From Thermoplasmata archaeon (GTDB taxonomy: Archaea; Thermoplasmatota; E2; DHVEG-1): a DNA stretch of 52,263 nt. The DNA lies in the NCBI GenBank assembly GCA_003942085.1, contig DQIQ01000007.1, positions 1 to 52,263 of the forward strand, read 5' to 3'. The position numbers and the translations under genes are program-made. Numbering within the stretch: the stretch's first letter is position 1; every line of letters begins with the position of its first letter. Positions 9,799-43,158 of the stretch are shown here, piece after piece. The notes under the pieces are model-generated. The model saw nothing but the letters and a program-made list of their open reading frames with translations. It was not told the DNA's origin and did no database searches.

Positions 9799-10215
9799 TT
9801 AGCGCTTTTTGAGAAATTCATCAACCTGCTGATGAATGTCATACACAATACCTAGTTTGAATGGGCCCGAAATCTGTGTCGAGCTGGGATCTGAGAGTGA
9901 TAGTACACATAATTGTCTTTGAAGTTTCATGACTTCGCTTTCAATTTGTTTTTGTGTTCTCGTCATCTGGTTTCGTAAATCCTGTATCTCCTGTTTCAAT
10001 CCTTTATTTGATTCAGAAAATTTCGGCTTTGTATTTTCTTCCTGTAGAAAATTATTTTTTACCTGAACATTTTGAGGTAATATCTCCTGGTTACATTCAA
10101 AATATTGATGAAGTGCATTCCTTAGAAGTTCACTGTTACTTATACCTTGTTTGTTTAGTTGTGAAACAATTTGTTCCTCTTTTTCAGACAGTTTGAGTGC
10201 AATCGTTTTACCCAT
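9799..10215 (-). CDS. Ribbon-helix-helix DNA-binding protein with coiled coil
   Basis: Predicted transcription factor of the CopG/Arc/MetJ ribbon-helix-helix type, 138 residues. The N-terminal 42 residues show the DNA-contacting strand (KTIALKLSEKEE) and two helices (IVSQLNKQGI, SNSELLRNALHQYF). A polar linker and a heptad-rich coiled coil (about residues 75-110) follow. It is paralogous to the adjacent gene at 10337-10969 in its first 45 residues. Such proteins dimerise and bind short direct or inverted repeats, often autoregulating or acting in plasmid partition. No repeats like those of its neighbour are found in or before this gene. Confidence 0.75.
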   Translation of the reverse strand: MGKTIALKLSEKEEQIVSQLNKQGISNSELLRNALHQYFECNQEILPQNVQVKNNFLQEENTKPKFSESNKGLKQEIQDLRNQMTRTQKQIESEVMKLQRQLCVLSLSDPSSTQISGPFKLGIVYDIHQQVDEFLKKR

Positions 10216-10336: not shown

Positions 10337-10969
10337 TTACATCCTAACGTTCTGTGGGGTCCACCTTTTCTTCAGTATCTCCTGTCGATTTTCTGATGGT
10401 GTAGGTATCTCGAAGGTTTGAGGGGGGGACTTTCGACATTCTTCGATATAAAACATTATCTGATCGAATCTATCATCGATACGTTTTGTTGAATCCTTGA
10501 CGTTATTCTGATATTCTGTTTGAAGTGATTGATAGGTCTCTTTCCAATACAGCATTTCCATTGCATATCTCGTTTTCCAATCGTGTAATTCACTGTCAAG
10601 CTGCTGGATATGTCTTTGAAGTTGGTAGACATACTGATCTAAGAAAGCTGCTTGAGATTGATTGACATGGTTTACAGGATTGTAAACCACTTTTTCTCGA
10701 AGGAAATCGTCAACTTTGTTTACATTTTGGTTTACATGGTTTACAACATTATATGCTTTTCTATTGTCTTCTTTTTTCTTCCCCTGTTGAAAATGGTTTA
10801 CGTGGTTTACATCTTTATATTGTTTTTCCCTATTTTTCGCATCATCTTCTTTTATATATTTCTTGAAAGCTTCGCGGATTATTACACTTGGTGAGATACC
10901 CTTTTTTCGCATGGAATCAATGAGTTCTTCCTCCTGGGAAGTAACTCGCAATGATATCGTTTTTCTCAT
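10337..10969 (-). CDS. Ribbon-helix-helix protein with VNHVN repeats and coiled coil
   Basis: Second ribbon-helix-helix protein, 210 residues from the chosen start MRKTISLRV. RHH domain at about 1-42, then a low-complexity linker (about 45-110) with repeated V-N-H-V-N words, then a long coiled coil (about 115-190). The V-N-H-V-N words are written by tandem GTAAACCA octamers in the coding strand. The same octamer is repeated at 11-bp spacing in the upstream region. This start has a GAGGTGA ribosome binding site 8 nt before its ATG; the upstream GTG at 10981 would overlap that site. Autoregulation, or a partition-like ParR/parC role, are possible readings; neither is shown. Confidence 0.72.
   Translation of the reverse strand: MRKTISLRVTSQEEELIDSMRKKGISPSVIIREAFKKYIKEDDAKNREKQYKDVNHVNHFQQGKKKEDNRKAYNVVNHVNQNVNKVDDFLREKVVYNPVNHVNQSQAAFLDQYVYQLQRHIQQLDSELHDWKTRYAMEMLYWKETYQSLQTEYQNNVKDSTKRIDDRFDQIMFYIEECRKSPPQTFEIPTPSENRQEILKKRWTPQNVRM
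10668..10810. repeat. GTAAACCA octamer cluster inside the RHH gene
   Basis: Six exact copies of the octamer (TGGTTTAC on the plus strand unless noted): 10668-10675, 10682-10689 (plus strand GTAAACCA), 10728-10735, 10737-10744, 10794-10801 and 10803-10810. The first two form a perfect inverted repeat with 9-nt arms and a 4-nt centre (10668-10689). Two pairs are in tandem at 9-bp spacing, which keeps the reading frame and gives V-N-H-V-N in the protein. The same octamer makes up the upstream array. Confidence 0.85.
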
Positions 10970-11004
10970 CGTAAATTTCACCTCAAAAATACAGATTTAT
11001 ACTT

Positions 11005-11106
11005 GTAAACCATGTGTAAGCCACTTGTAAACCATGATATTATTTAACAATGACTTTTTTCTCCATGTGAAGGATGGTAAAAAAGTCGTAAACCACCTGT
11101 AAACCA
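11005..11106 (+). promoter_or_regulatory. GTAAACCA operator-like array upstream of the RHH gene
   Basis: Direct repeats at 11005-11012, 11016-11023 (variant GTAAGCCA) and 11027-11034, and again at 11088-11095 and 11099-11106. Within each group the spacing is exactly 11 bp, one helical turn. The first group abuts a minus-strand TATA-like box (ATTTATA at 10995-11001) for the RHH gene, covering the region where BRE and TFB would bind. Tandem sites on one face of the helix fit cooperative binding by RHH dimers. The array also lies in the shared intergenic region with argS, about 215 nt or more from its TATA box. Confidence 0.65.
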
Positions 11107-11353
11107 CGATACTTTCTATCAAGGTTATGTCTGTCTTGGCCATCATCCTCGCAAAAGAATCATTCCACAAGTACTTATAGTTTTTTAACATTAAAAATAG
11201 ATAAAAACCCAATAACATCAAAACGACATTTCTGTTATATGACCTAGATGCTAAAAATATTTAAATTTTCAGCTCAAACACGTTTTCAACAATAAGAAAA
11301 CAAGAGGTGGAGAACAAAACCTTATAATACCATGGCAATTCCCACACGGTAGT
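11107..11353 (+). promoter_or_regulatory. argS upstream region with TATA-like box
   Basis: This is the rest of the 384-nt stretch without a gene between the RHH gene and argS. The TATA-like TTATAATA at 11322-11329 is centred 28 nt before the argS ATG at 11354, so the message is probably leaderless; no ribosome binding site is visible. An A/T-rich AAAATATTTAAATTTTC near 11252-11270 could be an alternative promoter. Apart from the octamer array to the left, no other structure is seen. Confidence 0.5.
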
Positions 11354-13078
11354 ATGTATCCGTTCGATCAATGTAAAAAAGAAATCACAATAGAACTTCA
11401 GAAGGTACTAGCAAAATACCATAGTAATATCGAGATCAGAGTTGAGATCCCACCAAACAACATGGGTGATTTTGCGTTTCCATGTTTTTCTCTAGCACCT
11501 TATGCAAAAAAATCCCCGATTGATTTAGCAAAAGATATTGCATCAGGCATCTCAAAAAACAAATTGATTACAAAGATAGATGCAAAAGGAGGATATGTCA
11601 ACTTCTTCATTGACAACACCTATCTTACATCGGTAACGCTAAAATCTATTTTAGAAAAAAAAGACACGTACGGATGTCTTCAAAAAAAGAAGAAAAAAGT
11701 TATTATTGAGCACACATCCGCAAACCCGAATGGTCCCTTGCATGTGGGACGAGCACGAAACCCTATCATTGGAGACACCCTTGTTCGCATCTTCAAGGCA
11801 GCTGGCTATGATGTCGAATCTCAATTCTATCTTGATGACATGGGTAAACAGGTTGCAATTCTTGCTTGGGGCATCCATAACCTTGATGGAAAACAAATTC
11901 CATTATCTGAAAATAAGAAAGCAGATCATCAAAAGGTCGGATTCTACCAAATAGCGAATGAACGCATGGAATCAGATGAGAAAGTTACTGAAGCCATTGG
12001 TGAAATCGTCAAAAAGTTAGAACAGGGTGATCATAACACTATTGATATGATTCATGCATCCTATGCACCAGTACTAGACGGTATAAAACAGAGTCTCTCA
12101 AGAATCAACATCCACATTGATACCTATATTCCTGAATCAGCATTCATCAACGATAAAAGCGTCGATAGAGTCATTAATGAACTAAAACAAACAACCTACT
12201 GTCATGAACAAGATGCCGCGTTTTATTTAGACATGGAACCGTTTGGTATTCATGGGAGAAGCACAAAATTTTTCTTTTTAAGAAGCGATGGTACAACCCT
12301 TTATGCAACCAGAGATATAGCCTATCATCAATGGAAAGCACACCATGCAGACCTGCTCATAAATGTTCTTGGTGAAGATCATAAACTAGAATCAAAACAA
12401 GTGCAAGTCGCTCTAGAGCTTTTACACACGAAGGTTCTCCCACAGATCGTATTCTATGCATTTGTCTCATTACCTGAAGGTAAAATGTCAACACGACGAG
12501 GTCGGGTCGTCTATCTTGATGAACTCATTGACGAATGCATCGAGCGTGCATACGAAGAAGTTAAAAAAAGACGGGCCAGTGAACTGACAGAATCTCAAAT
12601 GAAAAAAATCGCAGAACTAGTCGGTATTGGTTGTTTACGATACAATATCATAAAAATCCAACCTGAAAAAGACATCCTTTTTACATGGGAAGAGGCGTTA
12701 AATTTTGAAGGAAATGCTATTCCGTTTATTCAGTATGCTCATGCCCGAGCTTGTAGTATTCTTTCTAAAACAAAAGTAAAAAAATATACGTATGATTCTA
12801 CCCTGCTGACACATAATTCAGAAATACTTCTAGTAAAACAACTCGCGCGATTCCCCCTTGTTATTGATGATGCGTGCATTGGGTGCAAACCGCATATCGT
12901 TGCAAACTATCTTTACGAAACAGCTTCTGTCTTTAATCAATTCTATAGGGATTGTCCTGTACTTTCTGAGGAAAATATAATACTTCGTTCCTCACGAATC
13001 GCACTGGTAAATGCAACCAAAATCGTTCTTCATAATGCTCTTGATTTGCTAGGTATCTCTGCACCTGAGGAAATGTAA
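11354..13078 (+). CDS. argS: Arginyl-tRNA synthetase
   Basis: Class Ia aminoacyl-tRNA synthetase that charges tRNA-Arg with arginine. The 574 residues are the usual length. Order: N-terminal Arg-specific additional domain (1 to about 110); Rossmann catalytic domain with the HIGH-type motif HVGR at 130-133 after SANPNGPLHVGR; KMSK-type loop KMSTR at 377-381; and a C-terminal DALR anticodon-binding domain ending in NALDLLGISAPEEM. A TATA-like element 28 nt upstream suggests a leaderless start. The next gene starts immediately after the stop, so the two are translationally coupled. Confidence 0.96.
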   Translation: MYPFDQCKKEITIELQKVLAKYHSNIEIRVEIPPNNMGDFAFPCFSLAPYAKKSPIDLAKDIASGISKNKLITKIDAKGGYVNFFIDNTYLTSVTLKSILEKKDTYGCLQKKKKKVIIEHTSANPNGPLHVGRARNPIIGDTLVRIFKAAGYDVESQFYLDDMGKQVAILAWGIHNLDGKQIPLSENKKADHQKVGFYQIANERMESDEKVTEAIGEIVKKLEQGDHNTIDMIHASYAPVLDGIKQSLSRINIHIDTYIPESAFINDKSVDRVINELKQTTYCHEQDAAFYLDMEPFGIHGRSTKFFFLRSDGTTLYATRDIAYHQWKAHHADLLINVLGEDHKLESKQVQVALELLHTKVLPQIVFYAFVSLPEGKMSTRRGRVVYLDELIDECIERAYEEVKKRRASELTESQMKKIAELVGIGCLRYNIIKIQPEKDILFTWEEALNFEGNAIPFIQYAHARACSILSKTKVKKYTYDSTLLTHNSEILLVKQLARFPLVIDDACIGCKPHIVANYLYETASVFNQFYRDCPVLSEENIILRSSRIALVNATKIVLHNALDLLGISAPEEM

Positions 13079-32058: not shown

Positions 32059-32152
32059 TTTTTTCAAAAATCGGATTTTTGATAAGAAATGTACAGATAT
32101 CTTTATATAAAAATAGTAACACAATAACAGTATGATTTGTACGGGTGAGGAA

Positions 32153-33046
32153 ATGATTCATAAGTTACGGGTGTATCTTAAGCTTCTTCGGCCGTTTACC
32201 CTCTTAGCGCCCCTTATCGTATCAAGTTGTGTTATCGTTGCTAGTCTAATGAATTCCAAAACTACTGATTTTTCATTCGTTTCCCTCCTATGGACTATCA
32301 TATCAGCGAGTTTTTGTTTTGCTTCACTCAACGGTGCTTCCAATGTCTTAAATCAGGTGGCTGATCGGAAAGAAGACGCGCTTTCGAAACCCTACCGCCC
32401 GATTCCACGAGGAATCATCACTCCTAACGAAGCCTACAGGGTCTCTTTTTTCTTATACGCATTTGCACTTCTTCTTTCCTTAACCGTCCATATTCTTTTC
32501 AGTTTGTTTGTTTTTATCATCGCTTTTTTCTCCATAACCTATTCGCTTAAACCACGCATGAAAAAATATTTGTTTTTCAATCAACTGTGGGTTGCTCTCC
32601 CACGAGGGTTCTTTGGTTTCATTGGCTCCTGGAGCGTTTTTGGAAACCCGTTTGAGCCCCTTCCACTGGCGATGGGATGTATCGCTGCCCTGTTTCTTTT
32701 CGGCGGGACAGCCACAAAAGACATTTTGGACGCGGATGCAGATCGAACTGTTGGAACAAAAACCTTAGTAAATGTCTTTGGGCAAAAAACCGCAGCATTT
32801 TTCTCACTTTTTTTTATGGTCGGTGCGTTTGGGTTGATTCTTCCGTTGGTGTATTTTAAGATCATTCAGGCTACCTTTCTTCCCCTTGCATTTCTTGGTA
32901 TCTTAAGTGTTGTTATCGGATGGTTGATGATGCAAGATCATAAGAATAAAAAATGCGAAAACACTTCGGCCTGGACGGTCATGTATGCAACCTATTTTAT
33001 TTTTGCACTTGGTTTCGCAGTGATAGCAATTTCTTTTTCTGCATAA
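32153..33046 (+). CDS. UbiA-superfamily prenyltransferase (type A)
   Basis: Integral membrane prenyltransferase, about 297 residues and seven to nine helices. First Asp-rich motif NxxxDxxxD in LNQVADRKEDALSKPYRP, second in TKDILDADADRTVGT. These bind the Mg-diphosphate of an isoprenoid donor; acceptors range from quinone rings to lipids and carotenoids. Close relative of the 36350 protein (shared NGASN, SKPYRPIPRG, WSVFG and the second Asp motif). The start MIHKLRVYLK has GGTGAGGAA just before it; TTTATATAAA at 32102-32111 is the likely TATA box. The end overlaps the convergent 1066-residue gene by 50 nt. Confidence 0.88.
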   Translation: MIHKLRVYLKLLRPFTLLAPLIVSSCVIVASLMNSKTTDFSFVSLLWTIISASFCFASLNGASNVLNQVADRKEDALSKPYRPIPRGIITPNEAYRVSFFLYAFALLLSLTVHILFSLFVFIIAFFSITYSLKPRMKKYLFFNQLWVALPRGFFGFIGSWSVFGNPFEPLPLAMGCIAALFLFGGTATKDILDADADRTVGTKTLVNVFGQKTAAFFSLFFMVGAFGLILPLVYFKIIQATFLPLAFLGILSVVIGWLMMQDHKNKKCENTSAWTVMYATYFIFALGFAVIAISFSA

Positions 33047-36000
33047 TCCTGATTCTTATATCCAACATCAGGGATGACACCGCGATGATTACTGCGATGC
33101 AGACAAGATAAAACCCTATGCTAAATCCCCAGCTTGAATGCATCAATATTTCTTCTGAGCCTATTGGAATGATAAGTAATCTTTCTCCTTGAACTGCACC
33201 GATACTTGTTTCGGTTAATTTTGTCGTCCCGAGATAGAATGATGACAGTAAGATGCCAAGAAGAATGACTCCGCCGATGGTTAACAGGAGGGCATAATTT
33301 TTTTTCTGCATTCTTTTCGAAAGTATCCCCAGAACGAGACATAGACATGCAAGGGATGCGAGCGGTACTATTGCTGCAAGGAACATAATGAAGATATCAG
33401 GCATTTCTGCGATGTTGAGCGATATCTCTCCGTAGTATGTTCTTGTTTCAATCATCGTCGCAGGGTTCACATACATTGCGGTAATCTTTTCTGCTGGTGG
33501 GGTCGTACTCGAACCAATAAACAGCCACCATGGCTGGAAAAACGATAAGATGACAAGGAGTATTGCAAGACATTTCAGAAGAGATGAAAACGAAAATTTT
33601 TTTAACAAGGTAAGCACGACAAAAAACCCAAACAAAACACTGAATGCTAAAGAGAGAACAAGTGGGAAAATGGAATCAACGGTTGTGACAAACATCAGAT
33701 GTTTGTCATTGGTTAGCTTTACTTGTTTTAATCCTATATGCTCGTCTTTTAGATATGCGTTGATTGTATATTGGGCAGGGGGCAAAGAGAGTGTTTTTTC
33801 CTTTGTTTTTGCAAGGGTTTGGTTGTCCCGAACGATAACAAATTCTATATTATTATCCAGAAGAGTATTTCCTTTCGAATCATATAAATCAAGTGTGAGA
33901 TCAAACATCGCTGAAAATTTCATTCGAATTATGTTACCCGCCGTTGGTACTGTAACGTGCATATCGTCAATAAAATCCCCATAACTAATCTGAAGGTTGT
34001 AATCACCTGCAGGTACTCCTTCGAATGTGAAATGTCCTTGTTGGCTTGCTTCAGGAGTGAGTTGAATGGTTCTATTACTAATAGAAGTGACAAGAAGCGG
34101 GGTGAGTTCTACGCCAGGTGGCAAATCAAGGGAATCGGTCACAATGACGCTGAAGTTATAGAGTTGTATGGAGACTTGTTCGTTCAATTTTGTAATCGAT
34201 TGGCGGAGTTCCTTATCATAGATGATGAAATCTTTGTACTCAGCTCGGAGTGTATAGGGGTCTTTGAGGTCGTAGGGGGCTTTTACGAGTAACTCCCCAT
34301 TATTTTGTGTTATGTTTTCATCGTAAAGAACACCGTCTTTATTCGTCAACCAACCATGGATTCCTGGGATTCCTTGTCCGTACTGATCAAGAAACGTAAA
34401 TTTTATTGTTCGTTCCCATGTACAAAACACTTTTACCTTTTTGTCTTTATCAAGATGAAGAATTGTTGACCCTGTAAATCTTTTTGTTGTATTACCCCGT
34501 TTCAAATAGACCTTAACAAGATATTCTCCTTCTAGAATGTCGCTGAAGGTTTTTTTTGCTCTGAGAAGAAGCGATCGATTTGCCGGTCCCTCAGCAATTA
34601 CACGTCCCTCATGAGTAAGTTCGATCCACATCACGGGAAACGCACCACCGGTTCTATTCGACAACCAGGGGTACGTGAGATGTGCTCCTCCGAATCGGGG
34701 AATGACGGTGACATTGTACCTTTTTTGTTCTCTTTCAAAAGGTATATCGCCAGAAAGCTGACGAGATTTTACCAATGTCTGATACAGGTGTGATTCTTTT
34801 TGAACAGCGGTATACCCTCCAGTGTCTGAGGCGAAAACTTCTGCGTCAAACTGGACTACTAGATTTGATGGTATCGTTATATCATGACTGTATCCTGGCT
34901 TGTAAGAGTGTCTCCCAAAATTGATGGAAACATAATCTACTTCGGTCCCCAGAAAGTTTACGTACTCCTTCTCTGCGGCTTTTATCTGGATGCCATCACG
35001 TTCATCTGTTCCTGATGTGACAAGTCCTTGGTTGGAAGCGAAGAGAACAGCATTTGCTTTGCCCTCTTTTCCCTCTCCATAACTGAGCCACGCTTCTTTT
35101 CCTAAGGTGGCATCGTCCTTAAAGGAGACGATCCATTCGCGGTCTTTCGACGCAGGATTTTGATTTAACTGGTATTGGTCGATTTTATCGTTCTCCCCGT
35201 AGAAATCTAGGTACGGGTAGATTTGTCCAAAATTTAGGGAATCGACCGAAGCACTTCGTGATTTTATTGCGATGATCGAGCCAAATCGTCCATCGATATT
35301 ATCAATCCCCTGGACGGTCGCATCTTTTAACATCTCGTGGGCCACATGAACATTTAAGCGTTTTTCATCAAGTGGATTGTAATAATATTTATAAATCGCG
35401 GTCGTCTGAACATCTTTCTTTTTTGATTCGCTCATGATACCAAATTCTACCATGAGGTTTCCGTCAACAAAGATTTTCTTACCGATAAAAACCTGATCTG
35501 AGGCACTTTCATCTTTTTCTTTACTTCCATAATAATAGGAAAAAGCAAATGATACTATCTGATCAGACTCAATAAGATCAAATACCTTGGTGCCTTTCTT
35601 TTGTTTTACTACAACTTGAGAACAGGATCGATCGAGGAGTTGTCCTTCCTGTCCCACCCCATAGACACAATAGCCATCTTCTTTTATTCCGTAGAATTTT
35701 GCTTGAGCGGATACTTCAGGTAGGGGGGAGGAAGAATAGTTTTCATCGTCAATGCTCACATGGTCTAGGTAGGTCGGCTTTGGTGTTTTGCCATCGTTAT
35801 AGTAAATAAAGTAGCGTTCTGTTCCATCAGCGAAAGTTGGGATCAGGAATATCACGTTACATTCGGTGATATACGATGGTTTTTCTGTATCTTTTTTGAG
35901 AGAATAGATTTGTGATTCGAGTTCATACCATTTTTCTTTATACCAGCTGCATATTCGAATGGATGTGTTATTTTCGTTTTCTGTCCAGCATGGTTTTTCA

Positions 36001-36197
36001 AAGGTGATCCTCAGATCGATTGGCTGGTACTGGGCAGAAGAATCGTTTGTTGGGATCGGGGACTGCAGTTCTTGTCGGTATGACCATGCAGCATCCCAGA
36101 ATGGAATGTCAACGTCCTGTGAGGAACCAGGCAGGCTTATCGCTGGAAAGATAAGCAGAAGAAGCAGGCTGACTATAATGATAGTTGACCTTTGCAT
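32997..36197 (-). CDS. Large secreted protein with five C-terminal membrane helices
   Basis: Not recognised overall. 1066 residues. Signal peptide (MQRSTIIIVSLLLLLIFPAIS), then a beta-rich extracellular part; the first section (WDAAWSYRQELQSPI, then DGTERYFIYYNDGKTPKP) resembles DUF2341-type domains. Several carboxypeptidase-regulatory/Ig-like domains with GDYNLQISYGDF-type repeats follow. The last 230 residues contain five membrane helices, starting at FPLVLSLAFSVLFGFFVV. Lying among UbiA genes, it may belong to envelope functions; no enzymatic motif is seen. The 3' end overlaps the UbiA gene at 32153 by 50 nt on the opposite strand. Confidence 0.78.
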   Translation of the reverse strand: MQRSTIIIVSLLLLLIFPAISLPGSSQDVDIPFWDAAWSYRQELQSPIPTNDSSAQYQPIDLRITFEKPCWTENENNTSIRICSWYKEKWYELESQIYSLKKDTEKPSYITECNVIFLIPTFADGTERYFIYYNDGKTPKPTYLDHVSIDDENYSSSPLPEVSAQAKFYGIKEDGYCVYGVGQEGQLLDRSCSQVVVKQKKGTKVFDLIESDQIVSFAFSYYYGSKEKDESASDQVFIGKKIFVDGNLMVEFGIMSESKKKDVQTTAIYKYYYNPLDEKRLNVHVAHEMLKDATVQGIDNIDGRFGSIIAIKSRSASVDSLNFGQIYPYLDFYGENDKIDQYQLNQNPASKDREWIVSFKDDATLGKEAWLSYGEGKEGKANAVLFASNQGLVTSGTDERDGIQIKAAEKEYVNFLGTEVDYVSINFGRHSYKPGYSHDITIPSNLVVQFDAEVFASDTGGYTAVQKESHLYQTLVKSRQLSGDIPFEREQKRYNVTVIPRFGGAHLTYPWLSNRTGGAFPVMWIELTHEGRVIAEGPANRSLLLRAKKTFSDILEGEYLVKVYLKRGNTTKRFTGSTILHLDKDKKVKVFCTWERTIKFTFLDQYGQGIPGIHGWLTNKDGVLYDENITQNNGELLVKAPYDLKDPYTLRAEYKDFIIYDKELRQSITKLNEQVSIQLYNFSVIVTDSLDLPPGVELTPLLVTSISNRTIQLTPEASQQGHFTFEGVPAGDYNLQISYGDFIDDMHVTVPTAGNIIRMKFSAMFDLTLDLYDSKGNTLLDNNIEFVIVRDNQTLAKTKEKTLSLPPAQYTINAYLKDEHIGLKQVKLTNDKHLMFVTTVDSIFPLVLSLAFSVLFGFFVVLTLLKKFSFSSLLKCLAILLVILSFFQPWWLFIGSSTTPPAEKITAMYVNPATMIETRTYYGEISLNIAEMPDIFIMFLAAIVPLASLACLCLVLGILSKRMQKKNYALLLTIGGVILLGILLSSFYLGTTKLTETSIGAVQGERLLIIPIGSEEILMHSSWGFSIGFYLVCIAVIIAVSSLMLDIRIRIMQKKKLLSLRNQVQK

Positions 36198-36349
36198 AGG
36201 TTCCCTTTTTTTATATTTATTAATTACTTCTATATAAAAGAGTTGTTTTATAGATATAAGAACCTTTTTAATGAAAAGGTATGTCGCTTTGCTCTTGTTT
36301 CTCCTTATTTTTCAAAAATGGTATAAAAACCCCCTTTTTTTCCTTCAAG

Positions 36350-37315
36350 TTAAATAGGGGTGATAAAACTTAGTTGTCCAAGTTCTCCTAAAATGATGAG
36401 TGCGGTAAAGCTAATGGCATAGAAAAGATAGGTCACATACATCAATGACCAGGCTTGAACGTTTTCTAATGTTTCGCTTTGCTGTTGTTTGAGCATTAAA
36501 TAAAAGATGAGGAAACTGGGTATGATGAAGATAGTGAGCGGCAATAAATACGCGTTAATCATATGATAATGGACGAGAAATGGAATCATGACGAACGGAA
36601 CCATGAGGAATGGTAAGGAAATGTAGGCAGCTTTTCTGATACCAAATGTGTTGATGAGGGTCCGGGTTCCTGTTTTTCTATCTGCTTCGCAATCCACAAT
36701 GTCCTTTGTTGTCATAGCCCCTACAAAAAATACAAGGGCAATCATGCCAATCATCAGGGGCACCATCTGGAACGGGTCGCCAAAGACGCTCCATGATGCA
36801 AGGACTGCAAATAATCCTCGTGGGATAGCTATCCAAACCTGGTTTACAAAGAGAAATCGTTTCATACGTGGTGGAAGAGAATAGACCACAGTGAACAACA
36901 TAATGAGAAACACAAATACTCCGAACCATGTGTTGATCGTCACCGCACGTAGTAAGGCAAAAAGATAAAGGATATATGCGATGCTTTGTGCTTCATCACG
37001 TTCTACAACTCCGCGAGGGATCGGGCGGTACGGTTTTGATATTTTATCTGCTTCTACGTCAGTTGCCTGGTTTAGCGCATTTGATGCTCCGTTAAGAAAC
37101 GCTAAGGTGAGGCTTGCTTGGCCAATGATGATCCACCAGTTTGGGAATTCAACGAATCTATCGTTGTAAACGAGACTGGCGAACATGATGAACATTGAGA
37201 CAAAAAAGGGTGCAAGTAAGGTAAACGGTCTGAGTAAATCGAAATATCCTCTAAATTTTTTTGAGAGAAACCTGCTTTTTGCGTAGGGCTCTTTCATTGT
37301 TAATTTGACCGACAT
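36350..37315 (-). CDS. UbiA-superfamily prenyltransferase (type A)
   Basis: 321-residue membrane prenyltransferase, paralog of the 32153 product. First Asp motif NQATDVEADKISKPYRP, second TKDIVDCEADRKTGT, with LLRPFTLLAPF in the first helix shared by both. Roughly 20 more N-terminal residues than its paralog; MKEPYAK six codons in is an alternative start. Donor and acceptor unknown. The 152-nt gap to the surface-protein gene contains a T run near 36330-36341 and TATA-like stretches (ATATAAAA, about 36232-36239). Confidence 0.88.
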   Translation of the reverse strand: MSVKLTMKEPYAKSRFLSKKFRGYFDLLRPFTLLAPFFVSMFIMFASLVYNDRFVEFPNWWIIIGQASLTLAFLNGASNALNQATDVEADKISKPYRPIPRGVVERDEAQSIAYILYLFALLRAVTINTWFGVFVFLIMLFTVVYSLPPRMKRFLFVNQVWIAIPRGLFAVLASWSVFGDPFQMVPLMIGMIALVFFVGAMTTKDIVDCEADRKTGTRTLINTFGIRKAAYISLPFLMVPFVMIPFLVHYHMINAYLLPLTIFIIPSFLIFYLMLKQQQSETLENVQAWSLMYVTYLFYAISFTALIILGELGQLSFITPI

Positions 37316-37461
37316 TATGGCACCATGAATTTGGATATTTAGTTGTTCTGTATAGAGATGTATATTATATTAATTACCTTTCAAAACCAATGCATCGATT
37401 GCCATTATCATCACCATTATAAATATTTTTTTATTTTTAAAAAATAATTTGATAAATATTT

Positions 37462-38871
37462 TTAAATCAGGGGGGTGGTCGTGAGCATTTCTTGAATGAT
37501 CCGTGCTGAATTGATCGCACAGTTAATGCCTATCCCTGGGGCTTTGACACAATCACCAATGACATACAGGTTTTCTACAGGAGTTTGAATGTCTGGTTTT
37601 GTGTTATCCGTTGTTTTTGCTACACCGTCTAAATGCCATATCGCTGGATAGATGACCCAACGCAGCTGCGAACGAAAATCAGGGATCAATCGTTCGAGGT
37701 TCTTGTCAAGAGCGATTTTAAGTCTGTCCAGTGTTTTTTTATCACGTGCCTCTTTTGGCATACAAATGATATAGGATTGAACAAGATGATGTGATGGCGG
37801 CGCAACCCCAGTATCTGGTACAGCAGACATAAAATCAATCATGCCGACCGCGTCGTTCCCATCGACGCCGATATCTCGTTCAATGAAATGAAATGTTTTT
37901 CCTAACAAACGTGAGTCGATTTCTTTAAGCGAATAGTATGCGCACAGACTACCTGTTCCTTCAAGGGACTTCAACATGTTTACATAATCTTTTGGGAAAT
38001 GGTTTTCGTCAGCAATAGCAAACAGGTTCTGTACAAGCAATGTTGAGATGACAGCATCAAACCTATATTCTTTATTTCCTACCATGACTCCTGTAGCCTT
38101 GGCCCCTTCAATGAGAATTTTTTGAACTGGTGTTTCCGTCTTGATGACTCCACCGCGGCTGACGATTGCTTTTGCAAGTTTCTGATGAATCCCCCCGAGA
38201 CCGTTTTTCGGATATCCGACTGGTTTTGAGCCTTTTAAAAGTGTGCGTTGTGCACGGAACATTTCCCCTGTTGAAATACGATCGAGATTATTGACCGTGG
38301 AAATAGACCGAGAAAAAATCTCAAGGACGAGTTTCATTTTTCCTTGTCCATATTGTTCAATGGTTTTTGTCATAGAGATGCCATCGAGTCGGCGCATGGT
38401 TTTTTCACTAGCAAAAAGGAGTCGAAGGATGTTTGGAAGAATTTTTATTTTATCAAGTCGTGAGAGGAAGGGAAAGTCATATCCGCCTTCTTTAATGAAT
38501 CCAACGCTTGATTCGAGTGTTTCGATGTGGTCGTCAAGTGTCGCAAGCACGCTATTGAGATTGGACATGACCCCACCACCGATCGCATGGTACCCGAGAT
38601 CAAGCATGTAGCCGTCCAACAATTTTTTACTGAAAATCGTTTGAAGATCAGGCTCTGCGTAGGGGACGTTCATCTGAAATCGCGAAAGCAGCTTTAGATA
38701 CTGGTCCATGGTATACGATGAAGCATCAAAGGACAGAGCCCGGCCACCAATTACTGTTTCTTTTTCAAAAATCGTTACTTTATATCCTTGTTTTGTAAGG
38801 AGAGCACCTGCCGTAAGACCACTGATACCTGCCCCGATAATGCAAATCTCTTGTTGTTTTGTATTGCCCAT
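37462..38871 (-). CDS. CrtI/phytoene desaturase-like FAD oxidoreductase
   Basis: FAD-dependent oxidoreductase of the phytoene desaturase/amine oxidase type (COG1233), 469 residues. Dinucleotide-binding GAGISG at 13-18, FEKE about 20 residues later, GGRALS, and the C-terminal FAD motif LYVIGDCVKAPGIGINCAINSAR, as in CrtI/CrtD/carotenoid isomerase proteins. Those act in carotenoid desaturation or isomerisation. The start codon abuts the stop of the UbiA gene at 38872 with no gap, so the two are coupled, which ties the enzyme to prenyl chemistry. It could instead act on another isoprenoid, for example saturating or desaturating a lipid chain. Confidence 0.82.
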   Translation of the reverse strand: MGNTKQQEICIIGAGISGLTAGALLTKQGYKVTIFEKETVIGGRALSFDASSYTMDQYLKLLSRFQMNVPYAEPDLQTIFSKKLLDGYMLDLGYHAIGGGVMSNLNSVLATLDDHIETLESSVGFIKEGGYDFPFLSRLDKIKILPNILRLLFASEKTMRRLDGISMTKTIEQYGQGKMKLVLEIFSRSISTVNNLDRISTGEMFRAQRTLLKGSKPVGYPKNGLGGIHQKLAKAIVSRGGVIKTETPVQKILIEGAKATGVMVGNKEYRFDAVISTLLVQNLFAIADENHFPKDYVNMLKSLEGTGSLCAYYSLKEIDSRLLGKTFHFIERDIGVDGNDAVGMIDFMSAVPDTGVAPPSHHLVQSYIICMPKEARDKKTLDRLKIALDKNLERLIPDFRSQLRWVIYPAIWHLDGVAKTTDNTKPDIQTPVENLYVIGDCVKAPGIGINCAINSARIIQEMLTTTPLI

Positions 38872-39894
38872 TTACATCCTTGGCCTGAATAATTTTTCTC
38901 CTAGTAATGGCGTAAAAATGATATACCATGCAATAGGGAAAATAATGAGTATTATCGAGGGGACTACTCCGATGATGGGGATGAGCATGATCGGTACAAG
39001 TGAATATCGCAGGAAAGATTGTATCCCGATATATTTCCGTATTGCATTGCGTTCAAATCTTTTCAGCGATAACAGTTTTATGCTGAAGAACAAGACGCCA
39101 AAGGCTGCTGCAGCTAAGATACCTATGATGAGCGGTTGCCATGGTTCATAATAAATTAATTGATCCTTAAAAAAGAAGAATGGCGTAAAAAGAAGAACGA
39201 CTGAGAACAATCTGATGCCCATACCGAATGCTTTGAAACTGGTAGGAATGTATAGTTTTTCTCCATCTACCTTTACCCCTGAACCAAGAGCGATGTTGTT
39301 GACCCCCATCATGAAATCATGATCCGCATCCTTGATACCGCCTTCGACTGCATTCATATGTAAGGCTTGGTTGAAGGTCAGAATGAAGATAATCCAGGTT
39401 ATGATCGTTGGTGCTCCGAAGGATAGAGCGCCGAGTAAAAATAAAAATGACATAGAAATAGCCACAAAGAAATCCGAACCCGGGAGCGTTTTGCCCCGGA
39501 GGTCATAGATACTTCCAAGTATCCCTGCAAGAAAGATACAGATCATAGCAAGAAATTTATAATCATTGAGATTTTGGCCGCGCCATAGTAAAAAAAGGAA
39601 GAAGAATGCTAGGAGAACCAAAAAGAAACAGATAAAAACTGCGGTTCGTGGATGAATCGTGCCATCGACAAGGGGTTTGCCTTTCAGTTCCGGAATGAGT
39701 CTATCAAGCTCGATATCTGCGTAATCATTCAAGATGAATCCATACATTGCTGAAACAGCACCAATAAAAAATAAAATCAGAAGGTTAGGCAGATCCGTCA
39801 TGCCGACGGTGAGTGCCCCGATCACAGGAGGGATAGCAAGAGCACCAAGACCTGGAATGCGAAGCAGCCTTGCATATGCAGTAATTTTGTTCAT
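38872..39894 (-). CDS. UbiA-superfamily prenyltransferase (type B)
   Basis: 340-residue, roughly nine-helix prenyltransferase. First Asp motif NDYADIELD in YGFILNDYADIELDR, followed by GKPLVDGTI; second motif EGGIKDADHDFMMG. Close in pattern to the products at 39940 and 42151 (NDxxDxxxD, then GxKDxxxDxxxGxxTxA and GVKVxGxxL). UbiA members near CrtI-like genes include lycopene elongases of C50 carotenoid synthesis; this is a candidate only. Its stop touches the CrtI-like start, so they are expressed together. Confidence 0.88.
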   Translation of the reverse strand: MNKITAYARLLRIPGLGALAIPPVIGALTVGMTDLPNLLILFFIGAVSAMYGFILNDYADIELDRLIPELKGKPLVDGTIHPRTAVFICFFLVLLAFFFLFLLWRGQNLNDYKFLAMICIFLAGILGSIYDLRGKTLPGSDFFVAISMSFLFLLGALSFGAPTIITWIIFILTFNQALHMNAVEGGIKDADHDFMMGVNNIALGSGVKVDGEKLYIPTSFKAFGMGIRLFSVVLLFTPFFFFKDQLIYYEPWQPLIIGILAAAAFGVLFFSIKLLSLKRFERNAIRKYIGIQSFLRYSLVPIMLIPIIGVVPSIILIIFPIAWYIIFTPLLGEKLFRPRM

Positions 39895-39939
39895 CTGCGG
39901 GTAGGAAAAAGGTGTCGCTATTTGAGTTTTTCTAATGTT

Positions 39940-40953
39940 TTACATCGTTTTTGGCTGAAGTAGTGTCCCATGCAGGATAAGATTTGAGAAAATGAACCCA
40001 AGCCCGGGGAAGAACATAAGTATGCCTGGCCACGGGTTGCTTTGACTCATCAGCATAATGGGAACAAGAGTAAAATTAATCATATAGTGACTCCCGATGA
40101 ACATTCGTGCCCGTTTGCGGTCAAAGCTTTTCATCATCATCAGTTTGTGTGATAAGAAAAACATCAAAAAGCCGACAAAGATCAAGGAAGCCCATTGGAT
40201 GTATTGAAAGAGCGAAAGTGTACGAATATTCCATATGATAAAAAACGGTAGGAAAACACCTATCAGGTCAGCGAGCTGGATTCCATAGGCTAGTGTTTTG
40301 AAACTTCTTGAAACAAAAAGTTTTCCTTCGTTTATCCGTACCCCCATTTGGATTGCAAGTGTATGTGCTCCCCTGTAAAAGTCGTTTTCGATATCTTTCA
40401 TTCCCCCTGCGACCATTTGCATGAACAGGACCTGTATCGCTCCAAGGATGCAGACGATCCAGGTAAGCGTAGTGAGTGACGTAATTGAATTGGTAACAAC
40501 GCTTGCTCCGTATACGATCAAAAAGAAAACACCGATAGCAACAAAGAAATCAGTGAGAGGGAATTTCTTACTTACTAAATCATACAGGATGATGAATGAT
40601 GCTGATGCAGCCAGGATAATAAGCGGAAAAAAACGTTGTGTGGTAATTGCTAGATATAAAGAGATGATAAATGCGACTGCCATGGAGCCGAATGCAAAGA
40701 TCCATGCATTCCGAAGGGAAATCGTCCCGCTGATCAATGGTCGGTCGCTAATCTCTTTGGATGATTTGTCAATGTTGAAATCAATGATATCATTGAAGAC
40801 GAATCCAAAGGTGTGCCCTAAAAATCCAATGAAAAACAAGAGAATGAGTGTGGTGATGTCGTATTGCTGCATCGCAATCGCCCCCATCACCGGTGATATA
40901 CCTGTTAAAACCGCGTTGAATGACCGTGAAAGTTTCAGATATTCTCGTAACAT
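39940..40953 (-). CDS. UbiA-superfamily prenyltransferase (type B)
   Basis: 337 residues, membrane embedded. First Asp motif NDIIDFNID in FGFVFNDIIDFNIDK, DRPLISGTISL after it; second GGMKDIENDFYRG, then GVRINEGKLF. Same subtype as its neighbours at 38872 and 42151 but clearly distinct in sequence, so not a recent copy. Separated from the next prenyltransferase gene by 45 nt and from the CrtC-like gene upstream by 52 nt, all in one direction. Chain length and acceptor cannot be told. Confidence 0.88.
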   Translation of the reverse strand: MLREYLKLSRSFNAVLTGISPVMGAIAMQQYDITTLILLFFIGFLGHTFGFVFNDIIDFNIDKSSKEISDRPLISGTISLRNAWIFAFGSMAVAFIISLYLAITTQRFFPLIILAASASFIILYDLVSKKFPLTDFFVAIGVFFLIVYGASVVTNSITSLTTLTWIVCILGAIQVLFMQMVAGGMKDIENDFYRGAHTLAIQMGVRINEGKLFVSRSFKTLAYGIQLADLIGVFLPFFIIWNIRTLSLFQYIQWASLIFVGFLMFFLSHKLMMMKSFDRKRARMFIGSHYMINFTLVPIMLMSQSNPWPGILMFFPGLGFIFSNLILHGTLLQPKTM

Positions 40954-41005
40954 ACGAGAATCTTAGAAATGGAAACAGCATAAAAATCCATCGATAGAAT
41001 CTTTG

Positions 41006-42076
41006 TTATCTAAATTTAAGGAACTCTGCGATAAACAGATTGTCGATGGACTCTGTTTCTGAATTGATACGCACTGATCCAGTACATTTCACGTGATAAC
41101 GCCAGTAATCCATCAACGGAAAGATTTTTACATGATGGATATCAACGGTTTTCATGGTGACCTGAAGAGCAATGGTGTCAGTTTGGGCGTCGAGACTGAA
41201 CACATGAGGTATCATTTTTCCATTTTCTTCAGATATTTCAGTTGCAGTGAAGTGCAGGTTCTTTGGTGATACATTGATGTAGCTATTGTGTATGGTATTC
41301 ATGACAAGGAGCGGTTGAACTTTCACGGTTGTTCTGATGATGTTTGCCCAGGTAATAGCAGTACGGTCAGAATATATTTTTCCCCAGTACCATCCGATGT
41401 TTCGCAGGGCGAAGATTTTCACATTCCAGTTATGGTCATGATATCCACTTCCCTGCACGGTTATGGTCTGGGCTGCTAGAGTTATCGTTCCAGATACAAG
41501 TGCTCGTGGGAGAGTAACAACCCACCAGTCTTCTGCTTCGTGTTTTCCTTTCCATCCTTTTGTTGTTCCGATGAATTGTAGCTCTGCTGCAACATCGTCT
41601 ATTTGAAATGAGATATCGTAGATGAGATTTCCTGTTTTTTCATCAATGTATCCTTTCATTATGGTCCGTTCAGCTGTTTTGATGAATGGTTTTTCTTTTG
41701 ATATCTCGACATCTTTGAGAAGATGCATTTTACGTTTGTGAACGACGAGATGCCCTTCTTTATAAATATCAAACCTTACGAAAAGGAAGCTTAGGTTCAA
41801 TCCACTGAGAATTCTGGCACTAAATTGGATGCTGTATTCATCATTAAGTGCAGCGTCAAAATACCACCATTCGGTGAACTGAAGTCCTTGCGATCCATGG
41901 TAAGCATCGTCCTTAAGGATGATGTCTTGAGGAGAAAATTCAAAGGTATCTGCTGGTTCATCGACCTGATCCTTTTTCCTATTTTTCTTATGATTTTTCA
42001 TCAAACCAGGAAAAGAAAGCATGTAATTAATTTTTCTCACGGATTGATTTTTGCATTTACAGCAAATCTTAGCCAC
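41006..42076 (-). CDS. CrtC-like carotenoid 1,2-hydratase / AttH-fold protein
   Basis: Protein of the CrtC (hydroxyneurosporene synthase)/AttH lipocalin-like superfamily, 356 residues from a GTG at 42076. Two beta-barrel-like halves: the first opens with the hallmark FTEWWYFDAAL (about residues 64-74), the second with GSGYHDHNWNVKI and GWYWGKIY. CrtC adds water to a carotenoid end group. Archaeal examples are uncommon, and AttH-like relatives have other or unknown roles. The N-terminal Cys-rich stretch (KICCKCKNQ) is unusual, and a later start at MLSFPGL or MKNHKK is possible. It is the first gene of the CrtC-UbiA-UbiA-CrtI run. Confidence 0.75.
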   Translation of the reverse strand: MAKICCKCKNQSVRKINYMLSFPGLMKNHKKNRKKDQVDEPADTFEFSPQDIILKDDAYHGSQGLQFTEWWYFDAALNDEYSIQFSARILSGLNLSFLFVRFDIYKEGHLVVHKRKMHLLKDVEISKEKPFIKTAERTIMKGYIDEKTGNLIYDISFQIDDVAAELQFIGTTKGWKGKHEAEDWWVVTLPRALVSGTITLAAQTITVQGSGYHDHNWNVKIFALRNIGWYWGKIYSDRTAITWANIIRTTVKVQPLLVMNTIHNSYINVSPKNLHFTATEISEENGKMIPHVFSLDAQTDTIALQVTMKTVDIHHVKIFPLMDYWRYHVKCTGSVRINSETESIDNLFIAEFLKFR

Positions 42077-42150
42077 AATATACTCATTGTCGTAATTTCC
42101 TGTTGAGTAACTTTTTTATTATCAGTCGTATTTATCTTGTCTGATACTCG

Positions 42151-43158
42151 ATGGCTTGGAAAACAAAAGTAGTAGGGTATTTCCGACTGATGCGATTTCA
42201 ATCAGCTGCATCGGAGTCTTTACTTATCCTTATCGGTGCTTTGCTCATGGGACAGAAGGATCCTTTGTTGTTGGTCGTCTTGTTTGTTGTCGGTGTTCTT
42301 TTTCATATTTATGGATTTGTATTCAACGATTATGCGGACATCGAGGTCGATAAAAAATCAGTTGATCTGAAGAAAAAACCTTTGGTGAGTGGACTGATTT
42401 CGCCGACGCACGCTCTGCTTATAACCTGCATTTCTGTCGTGTGTCTCTATAGTATTGTTATCGTATTTTTTCCTTCAGTTATTGCCATCACGATTTTATC
42501 TATGGCCATCCTCTTAGGGGGGATCTATGATTATTTTGGGAAAAAAATCTCACATATCTCAGATTTTTTTGTAGCTGGAGCCCTTGCGTTGATTGTCCTG
42601 TTCGGCGCAAGTACGGTTTCGTCACACATCACCGTCATCGTGTATATCATTAGTCTTATGATTTTCATTGGGATCGTATTTGCAAACGCGGTTGAAGGGG
42701 GTTTAAAAGATGTGGATCATGACTACCTGGGTGGGGCAAAAACCATTCCAACCCTTTTAGGCGTGAAAGTAACCGAAGGACATTTACTCATGACCCGGCG
42801 GTTTTTGGCGTTTGCTTATGGATTGATCGCTCTCTGTTTTTTGTTGCTTATCGTTCTTTTAATGCAACCCGCGATAGGTTTCTTTAATGGTGATTATCTA
42901 CGATTGGGCCTCGTCAGTATATTGGTTGTTGTGATGGTTTTTGTCTCAGTTAAATTCCTCTCGATTTCATTGTTTGATCGATCGAAAATGAAACGACTTT
43001 ACGCTGTTCTTAATTCGCTTGCTGGAATAGTTTTACTTGTGACGTTGTATCCATTTTTTGGGTTGGAGGATTTGGTGATACTTCTTTTGATACCGATCGC
43101 ATGGTATGTGGTGTGTAATAACGTGCTTTATGGCAAACCACTACAACCAGATGTGTAG
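42151..43158 (+). CDS. UbiA-superfamily prenyltransferase (type B), divergent copy
   Basis: 335 residues, roughly nine helices. First Asp motif NDYADIEVD in YGFVFNDYADIEVDKK, KKPLVSGLISP next; second EGGLKDVDHDYLGG, then GVKVTEGHLL. Nearest in pattern to the 38872 and 39940 products. Transcribed away from the CrtC-like gene from a 74-nt shared gap with no visible ribosome binding site. It lies 43 nt before metV but has its own orientation group; whether the two are co-transcribed is unclear. Confidence 0.88.
   Translation: MAWKTKVVGYFRLMRFQSAASESLLILIGALLMGQKDPLLLVVLFVVGVLFHIYGFVFNDYADIEVDKKSVDLKKKPLVSGLISPTHALLITCISVVCLYSIVIVFFPSVIAITILSMAILLGGIYDYFGKKISHISDFFVAGALALIVLFGASTVSSHITVIVYIISLMIFIGIVFANAVEGGLKDVDHDYLGGAKTIPTLLGVKVTEGHLLMTRRFLAFAYGLIALCFLLLIVLLMQPAIGFFNGDYLRLGLVSILVVVMVFVSVKFLSISLFDRSKMKRLYAVLNSLAGIVLLVTLYPFFGLEDLVILLLIPIAWYVVCNNVLYGKPLQPDV

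Follow-up and report, generated by a model that had tools for sequence, protein, structure and literature searches.

A chromosomal archaeal RHH gene with predicted binding sites for its own product in its leader and linker codons

Why should an archaeal chromosomal gene for an RHH protein repeat one octamer both ahead of its start codon and within its coding sequence? We think it rather probable that this gene, here called RHH1, carries the predicted binding-site array of its own product, which would bind the array cooperatively and act as a negative autoregulator.

An octamer array in the leader and linker of RHH1

The window, i.e., the whole stretch of 52,263 nucleotides that was analyzed, contains 11 exact copies of the octamer GTAAACCA against 1.32 expected, a number never attained in shuffles. 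Ten of them lie within about 440 bp (10668-11106) and one more at 36840-36847. This recount confirms the sequence-only reading, which had reported ten exact copies plus one variant at the locus, far above a chance expectation it had put at about 1.6, and only the copy at 36840 elsewhere in the window. The regular spacing described there also stands. On the plus strand, a proximal leader cluster (11005-11034) has GTAAACCA at 11005, the variant octamer GTAAGCCA at 11016-11023 and GTAAACCA at 11027, on an exact 11-bp lattice, and a distal leader cluster (11088-11106) has two GTAAACCA copies, again 11 bp apart (11088 and 11099). On the minus strand, two tandem pairs of coding copies at 9-bp spacing, 10728/10737 (10728-10744) and 10794/10803 (10794-10810), encode V-N-H-V-N-Q and V-N-H-V-N-H, respectively, and a copy in sense orientation at 10668-10675 encodes V-N-H. 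The earlier statement that the coding copies spell V-N-H-V-N is thus correct for the tandem pairs but not for the copy at 10682-10689, which is inverted (plus strand) and yields V-Y-N.

Close spacing of the octamer is a property of this locus alone. A search across the 2.02-Mb Thermoplasmatota-like genome, one of the checks proposed from the sequence, found octamer pairs 1-3 bp apart nowhere else. The 9-mer TGTAAACCA has 27 copies in the genome, eight of which are inside the 440 bp, and the remainder are scattered singles near the reversed-pattern background of 15. A genome-wide octamer regulon was rejected on these grounds, i.e., absence of close pairs elsewhere and singles at about background. 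The site has the shape of an 8-bp near-palindrome, GGT-NN-ACC or TGT-AA-ACC, with sites 8-12 bp apart; the version listed for RHH1 of this genome (G000) is TGTAAACC.

RHH1 (10337-10969, minus strand) encodes 210 amino acids, with an RHH domain (aa 1-45), a linker (aa 50-102) and a coiled-coil helix (aa 104-180), and has orthologs in six other genomes. Translation most likely starts at ATG 10969 rather than at GTG 10981, because the orthologs begin with M[RNSKG]xTISL or similar. An AlphaFold model built from five sequences gives pLDDT values below 50 for the linker and mostly 88-97 for the coiled coil, and shows an extended N-terminus followed by helices 11-22 and 27-57; a single-sequence model was poor. 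The ortholog profile retrieved CopG-family structures as best PDB matches (E 0.007-0.6), a CopG-like repressor in PHROG matched RHH1 with an E of 0.0095, and the Pfam RHH_1 score was 14.6 bits, under the cut-off of 20.5. These similarities make a weak case for assigning RHH1 to the CopG/MetJ-like RHH proteins; no matches to replication-initiator families were found. The array maps to aa 54-102, that is, to the low-confidence linker, and it has the same placement in eight genes.

Counted back from the ATG, the leader copies span 36 to 137 bp, yet they are downstream of a conserved TATA-like box (TATAAGTACT, approximately 11170-11179, minus strand), the putative promoter of RHH1 and of its downstream neighbor RHH2, and every motif copy is downstream of it. 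Relative to the ATG, the box is at -199 to -210 in G000, G001, G002, and G008, and counterparts (TATAAGTA) occur at -52 in G021 and at -109 in G030. Because of this position relative to the box, the copies probably sit in a transcribed leader. They do lie upstream of the gene as had been noted, but the label of promoter repeats probably does not fit, as the TATA-like box is further upstream. In four genomes, a small leader ORF of 49-51 aa runs in frame across these copies; it was judged non-coding since its differences lack the third-position bias seen in RHH1, and a search of the region found no known RNA family.

Conservation and co-variation of the sites

Orthologs of RHH1 were found in three genomes of the same genus (G001, G002, and G008) and in three from other genera of the family (G021, G025, and G030), with a second coiled-coil copy on contig C52 of G030. 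A plain-protein search of genome contigs gave no match, and a profile search gave four loci, corresponding to G001, G002, G008, and G025. Two further array-bearing relatives, G040 and G043, have a different C-terminus. In eight genomes, this one included, the linker DNA of an RHH gene contains 5-14 copies of GTA-N-ACC: six in G000, eight in G008, seven in G001, five in G002, six in G021, 14 in G030, 11 in G043, and seven in G040. A three-site pattern was present in seven of 390 genomes of the phylum, all seven of which carry the RHH1 gene family.

The linker residues, V-[N/D/Y]-[Q/H/L/P/R], are what GTA-NAC-CNN encodes, and codon choice follows the DNA core. Across the eight genes, the valine codon is GTA in 64 of 71 linker V-[NDY] pairs against 12 of 46 valine codons outside such pairs in these genes (p 9e-13), the N/D/Y codon ends in C in 67 of 71 pairs against 56 of 202 elsewhere (p 2e-24), and the codon after the pair starts with C in 66 of 71 cases against a background of 20% (p 3e-40), p-values that overstate independence as tandem linker copies share ancestry. 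Back-translation and, separately, permutation of the synonymous codons of each gene reached the observed counts in none of 5000 trials per gene. A comparison between orthologs avoids the inflation from shared ancestry of tandem copies. Here, motif codons tended toward identity between diverged orthologs more than other shared codons did, with p between 0.001 and 0.1 per pair and 0.7 for one close pair. Two kinds of copies keep the DNA without the V-N-x peptide, namely the inverted copy at 10682-10689 and out-of-frame GGTATACC copies in G030, which read G-I-P. Linker units recur approximately every 66-69 bp in several orthologs, and the spacers between sites diverge while the cores do not. Codon usage and sequence comparison are thus as expected for a linker array conserved as DNA, with the peptide following.

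Leader and linker versions of the site change together within this genus. Every leader and linker site of G000 has T/C before GTAAACCA, whereas all those of G001 and G008 are GGTAAACC; in G002 the leader consists of four GGTAGACC, a version that also appears in the linker. The leader copies have flanks unrelated to those of the linker copies, yet they co-vary with them. In G030, all linker sites are GGTATACC. The RHH beta strand appears to vary in parallel with the site version, with R8 accompanying T-flanked sites in two genera (G000 and G021), K8 accompanying G-flanked sites, and V4 accompanying GTATACC in G030; among these few, related genomes the parallel is suggestive.

Judged by its sequence, the ortholog in G025 is the clearest natural domain swap. 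Its coiled coil is conserved, its RHH domain is different, and the linker motif is absent. Upstream of it (L011:1011-1218) are 11 copies of GTAGTG(GA), mostly in 11- or 22-bp steps, with inverted copies filling gaps of the 11-bp lattice; the site version listed for the G025 protein is GTAGTGGA. A stretch between RHH2 and a tRNA synthetase-like gene of G025 (L011:2489-2600, VNQMVNKYTEKVNQ...QQEKVNPMVNQKVNQK), which encodes neither an RHH domain nor a coiled coil, has the appearance of a linker array that was orphaned and is decaying. In G001, five copies of GTAAACC/GTTAACC at 10-12-bp spacing lie between genes on contig C152, which does not carry RHH1 (L068:1501-1551), and are a possible second target in that species.

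In this genus, putative sites occupy the leader downstream of the TATA-like box, but the relatives G021, G030, G040, and G043, all from other genera, have the linker array without any leader copies. For this reason, the linker array probably came first, and leader copies would have been added in this genus. The spread of repeats from the promoter into the linker, one origin considered in the sequence-only reading, would have run in the direction that these four relatives contradict. That reading had also looked to ortholog alignment for co-variation of the two arrays and had counted the presence of one array without the other against binding. Co-variation is indeed found within the genus, and one array occurs without the other in one way only, as linker without leader, which counts against the spread model and not against binding.

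Proposed self-binding and competing explanations

We infer that RHH1 itself is the binder, that it binds cooperatively and that it represses its own transcription. RHH proteins bind short, often palindromic tandem sites as dimers through a beta ribbon, and the form and spacing of the motif fit this. One RHH1 dimer would occupy each 8-bp near-palindrome, and stacking of sites 8-12 bp apart would let neighboring dimers cooperate, as on MetJ or omega arrays. The coiled-coil tails could bridge dimers bound at the leader and at the linker, but such looping would not be universal because four relatives have no leader copies. With accumulation, RHH1 would coat the leader and its own gene body, blocking RHH1-RHH2 transcription and thereby making expression self-limiting. 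Selection would act on the sites as DNA, and the V-[NDY]-[QHLPR] peptide would be tolerated because the linker need only be flexible. The codon constraint, the inverted and out-of-frame copies, and the co-variation of leader, linker, and beta strand lend good support to the earlier suggestion that the gene holds putative sites for its own product.

A serious rival in this genus is pairing at the RNA level, in which leader copies (UGGUUUAC in the mRNA) pair with linker copies (GUAAACCA) and the resulting long-range structure governs translation or stability, so that an octamer-binding protein is unneeded. In G000, G001, and G008, the leader copies run opposite to the linker copies and are thus complementary to them, and pairing would demand concerted change of the two. 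Leader plus coding region are predicted to fold with z-scores of -4.0 in G000 and -4.5 in G008, with the leader pairing with the linker, while the coding part of G000 by itself is unremarkable (z -0.7). However, linker array and codon constraint are kept in the four relatives lacking leader copies, the G021 fold is not unusual (z 0.5), and in G002 the leader copies pair among themselves and leave two linker copies (GGTAAACC) without an exact partner. As the 11-bp lattice and the domain swap in G025 also point to DNA, we consider control by RNA structure unlikely. Another rival is an origin at the peptide level. If the linker were an expanding minisatellite whose V-N-x repeats are selected or neutral, with the likeness of the leader a coincidence or a by-product of duplication, units every 66-69 bp would be natural, and recent shared ancestry of copies would inflate synonymous identity. 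The residues nevertheless vary among N/D/Y and Q/H/L/P/R while the DNA core stays, inverted and out-of-frame copies yield other peptides, spacers diverge where cores do not, and leader copies co-vary despite unrelated flanks, which makes this origin very improbable.

Binding to DNA could also serve another end or involve another protein. The locus might be a cis-acting maintenance site, centromere- or origin-like, at which RHH1 nucleates a complex for maintenance of a chromosome or element and autoregulation is secondary. Placement of the array in linker-encoding DNA is shared with lambda O (PMC7466680) and pSK41 Rep (PMC5703833), 11-bp-phased direct repeats resemble the stbDRs of StbA (PMC3098194), there is one array locus in the genome, and the protein has a coiled coil. 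The leader and linker arrays, moreover, form a centromere-like direct-repeat array adjoining an RHH gene, a trait of partition systems. Against such a site, no NTPase or replication gene is adjacent, the gene is missing from several congeners and hence dispensable, GC3-skew has no clean switch at the locus, and our searches found no plasmid, phage, or viral-contig relatives of RHH1; we therefore regard a maintenance role as improbable. ParA/MinD-type and Cdc6 genes are on other contigs, the sole strong ParA/MinD-type (AAA_31) match in the genome being a MinD-like gene, and neither ParM nor ParA nor SegA was seen beside RHH1 in the window or at orthologous loci. The earlier idea of a partition locus stranded in the chromosome finds no support here, and a partition or plasmid relic was rejected for want of both an NTPase neighbor and plasmid, phage, or viral relatives. 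Alternatively, RHH2 or another regulator instead of RHH1 might bind the array. RHH2 is adjacent in seven genomes, has a strand of the T-I-x-L-K type and, in G030, contains three GTAAACC copies in its own linker. Yet congeners with RHH2 only (G003, G004, G006, and G007) have no arrays, the neighboring paralogs of G030 differ in motif (GTATACC versus GTAAACC), and the array genes of G040 and G043 lack an adjacent RHH2, so that we find another binder quite unlikely.

A replication origin at the locus was rejected separately. The window does show a shallow GC-skew minimum near 14 kb, but skew at third codon positions does not invert to the left of the locus and is mixed there, and cdc6 is carried by a different contig. 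From about 14.5 kb (14500-52000), third-position GC skew is mostly positive on the plus strand regardless of gene orientation, and it is mixed leftward.

Known systems and gene neighborhood

Small RHH dimers of MetJ, omega, CopG, and ParR cooperate on 7-11-bp repeats that overlap with their promoters or lie next to them. To our knowledge, sites of RHH autoregulators are known only from promoters, operators, or centromeres, and we know of none that form an array in linker codons. RHH1 resembles these proteins in its short tandem putative sites and differs from them in having an array written into the codons of its linker. A limited full-text search of open-access literature found no chromosomal RHH regulator with an array in its own linker. 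What is known already are linker-spelling sites inside the own gene of plasmid and phage initiators and SegB sites within segAB of one species. In RepA_N initiators of the pSK41 type, the N-terminal domain binds repeated boxes located centrally in the own gene, which encode a dispensable linker between the N- and C-terminal domains (PMC5703833). Lambda O and lambdoid origins likewise have sites within the own gene, where additional iterons lengthen the protein (PMC7466680). The RHH1 array also lies in DNA encoding the linker between a DNA-binding and a C-terminal domain, although here it is only the architecture that is observed and binding that we infer. pSK41 Rep is, however, a plasmid initiator of unrelated fold, whereas RHH1 is chromosomal and archaeal, is not accompanied by replication genes and has a second array in its leader; lambda O acts at a phage origin with an AT-rich region, and neither such a role nor homology is evident for RHH1. 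The archaeal RHH protein SegB has sites upstream of segAB, with the majority of its sites in the genome falling inside genes, among them segAB in S. acidocaldarius; it works with SegA on a 13-bp palindrome of the TCTAGA type at tens of sites genome-wide (PMC12284271). RHH1 differs from it by the lack of a SegA neighbor, by another motif and by a single array locus. StbA of R388 is a DNA-binding protein that recognizes 9-bp direct repeats with 2-bp spacers, and hence an 11-bp period, around its operon promoter (PMC3098194). It belongs to a plasmid stability system with repeats around the promoter, and homology to RHH1 is not demonstrated.

Replication initiators of plasmids and phages are thus known to have sites within their own genes, which also serve as origins. 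The same architecture without replication or partition partners suggests another purpose, most simply autoregulation through the gene body. It is intriguing to propose, at evenly balanced confidence, a chromosomal archaeal RHH family whose linker codons are its own recognition sites and in which linker and leader sites are rewritten together whenever the recognition ribbon changes specificity. If true, this would be a self-contained unit of protein-site co-evolution outside plasmid or phage replication, in which the function of the DNA and not that of the protein clearly dictates the linker codons. With four versions of the motif, several ribbon sequences, and a domain swap, the orthologs offer a natural series in which RHH-DNA recognition and protein-site co-evolution are directly testable.

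In this genome and six others, RHH1 is immediately followed by RHH2 (here 9799-10215, minus strand, 138 aa), which encodes a paralogous RHH and coiled-coil protein. The argS-like gene that flanks RHH1 in this genome also neighbors RHH2 in the RHH2-only congeners. By eye, the RHH pair adjoins aminoacyl-tRNA synthetase-like genes whose kind varies by genus (arginyl, tyrosyl-like, valyl/isoleucyl-like; window 11354-13078, L046:4757-5812, L047:5331-6371, and L045:7159-9882), either by chance or as a recurring neighborhood. In G040 (L026), a small stand-alone RHH-like protein (MPNVTISLSNEDKKKLDDL...) is encoded just ahead of the array gene, from approximately 170 to 20 bp upstream, and a decayed version of it seems present in G043.

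A scan of viral contigs for the pattern returned at least 120 stretches, and most in-frame matches listed are low-complexity repeats, which is not unexpected in so large a collection. Among the matches listed, only two genes are of interest. A gene for a phage DnaD-like replisome organizer (L118:874-1782; PHROG 186, E 3e-26) has three GGTAAACC in its linker at 12-bp spacing and is an independent parallel in which the motif is nearly identical. The other, a phage gene resembling HTH repressors (L193:1-594), has four TGTAAACCT within the linker, and the rest of the 13 kb examined contains no further copy. Elsewhere in the window, inspection by eye revealed five UbiA-like prenyltransferase genes (at 32132, 36350, 38872, 39940, and 42151) within 11 kb (32132-43158), a cluster that includes an FAD-dependent oxidoreductase-like gene.
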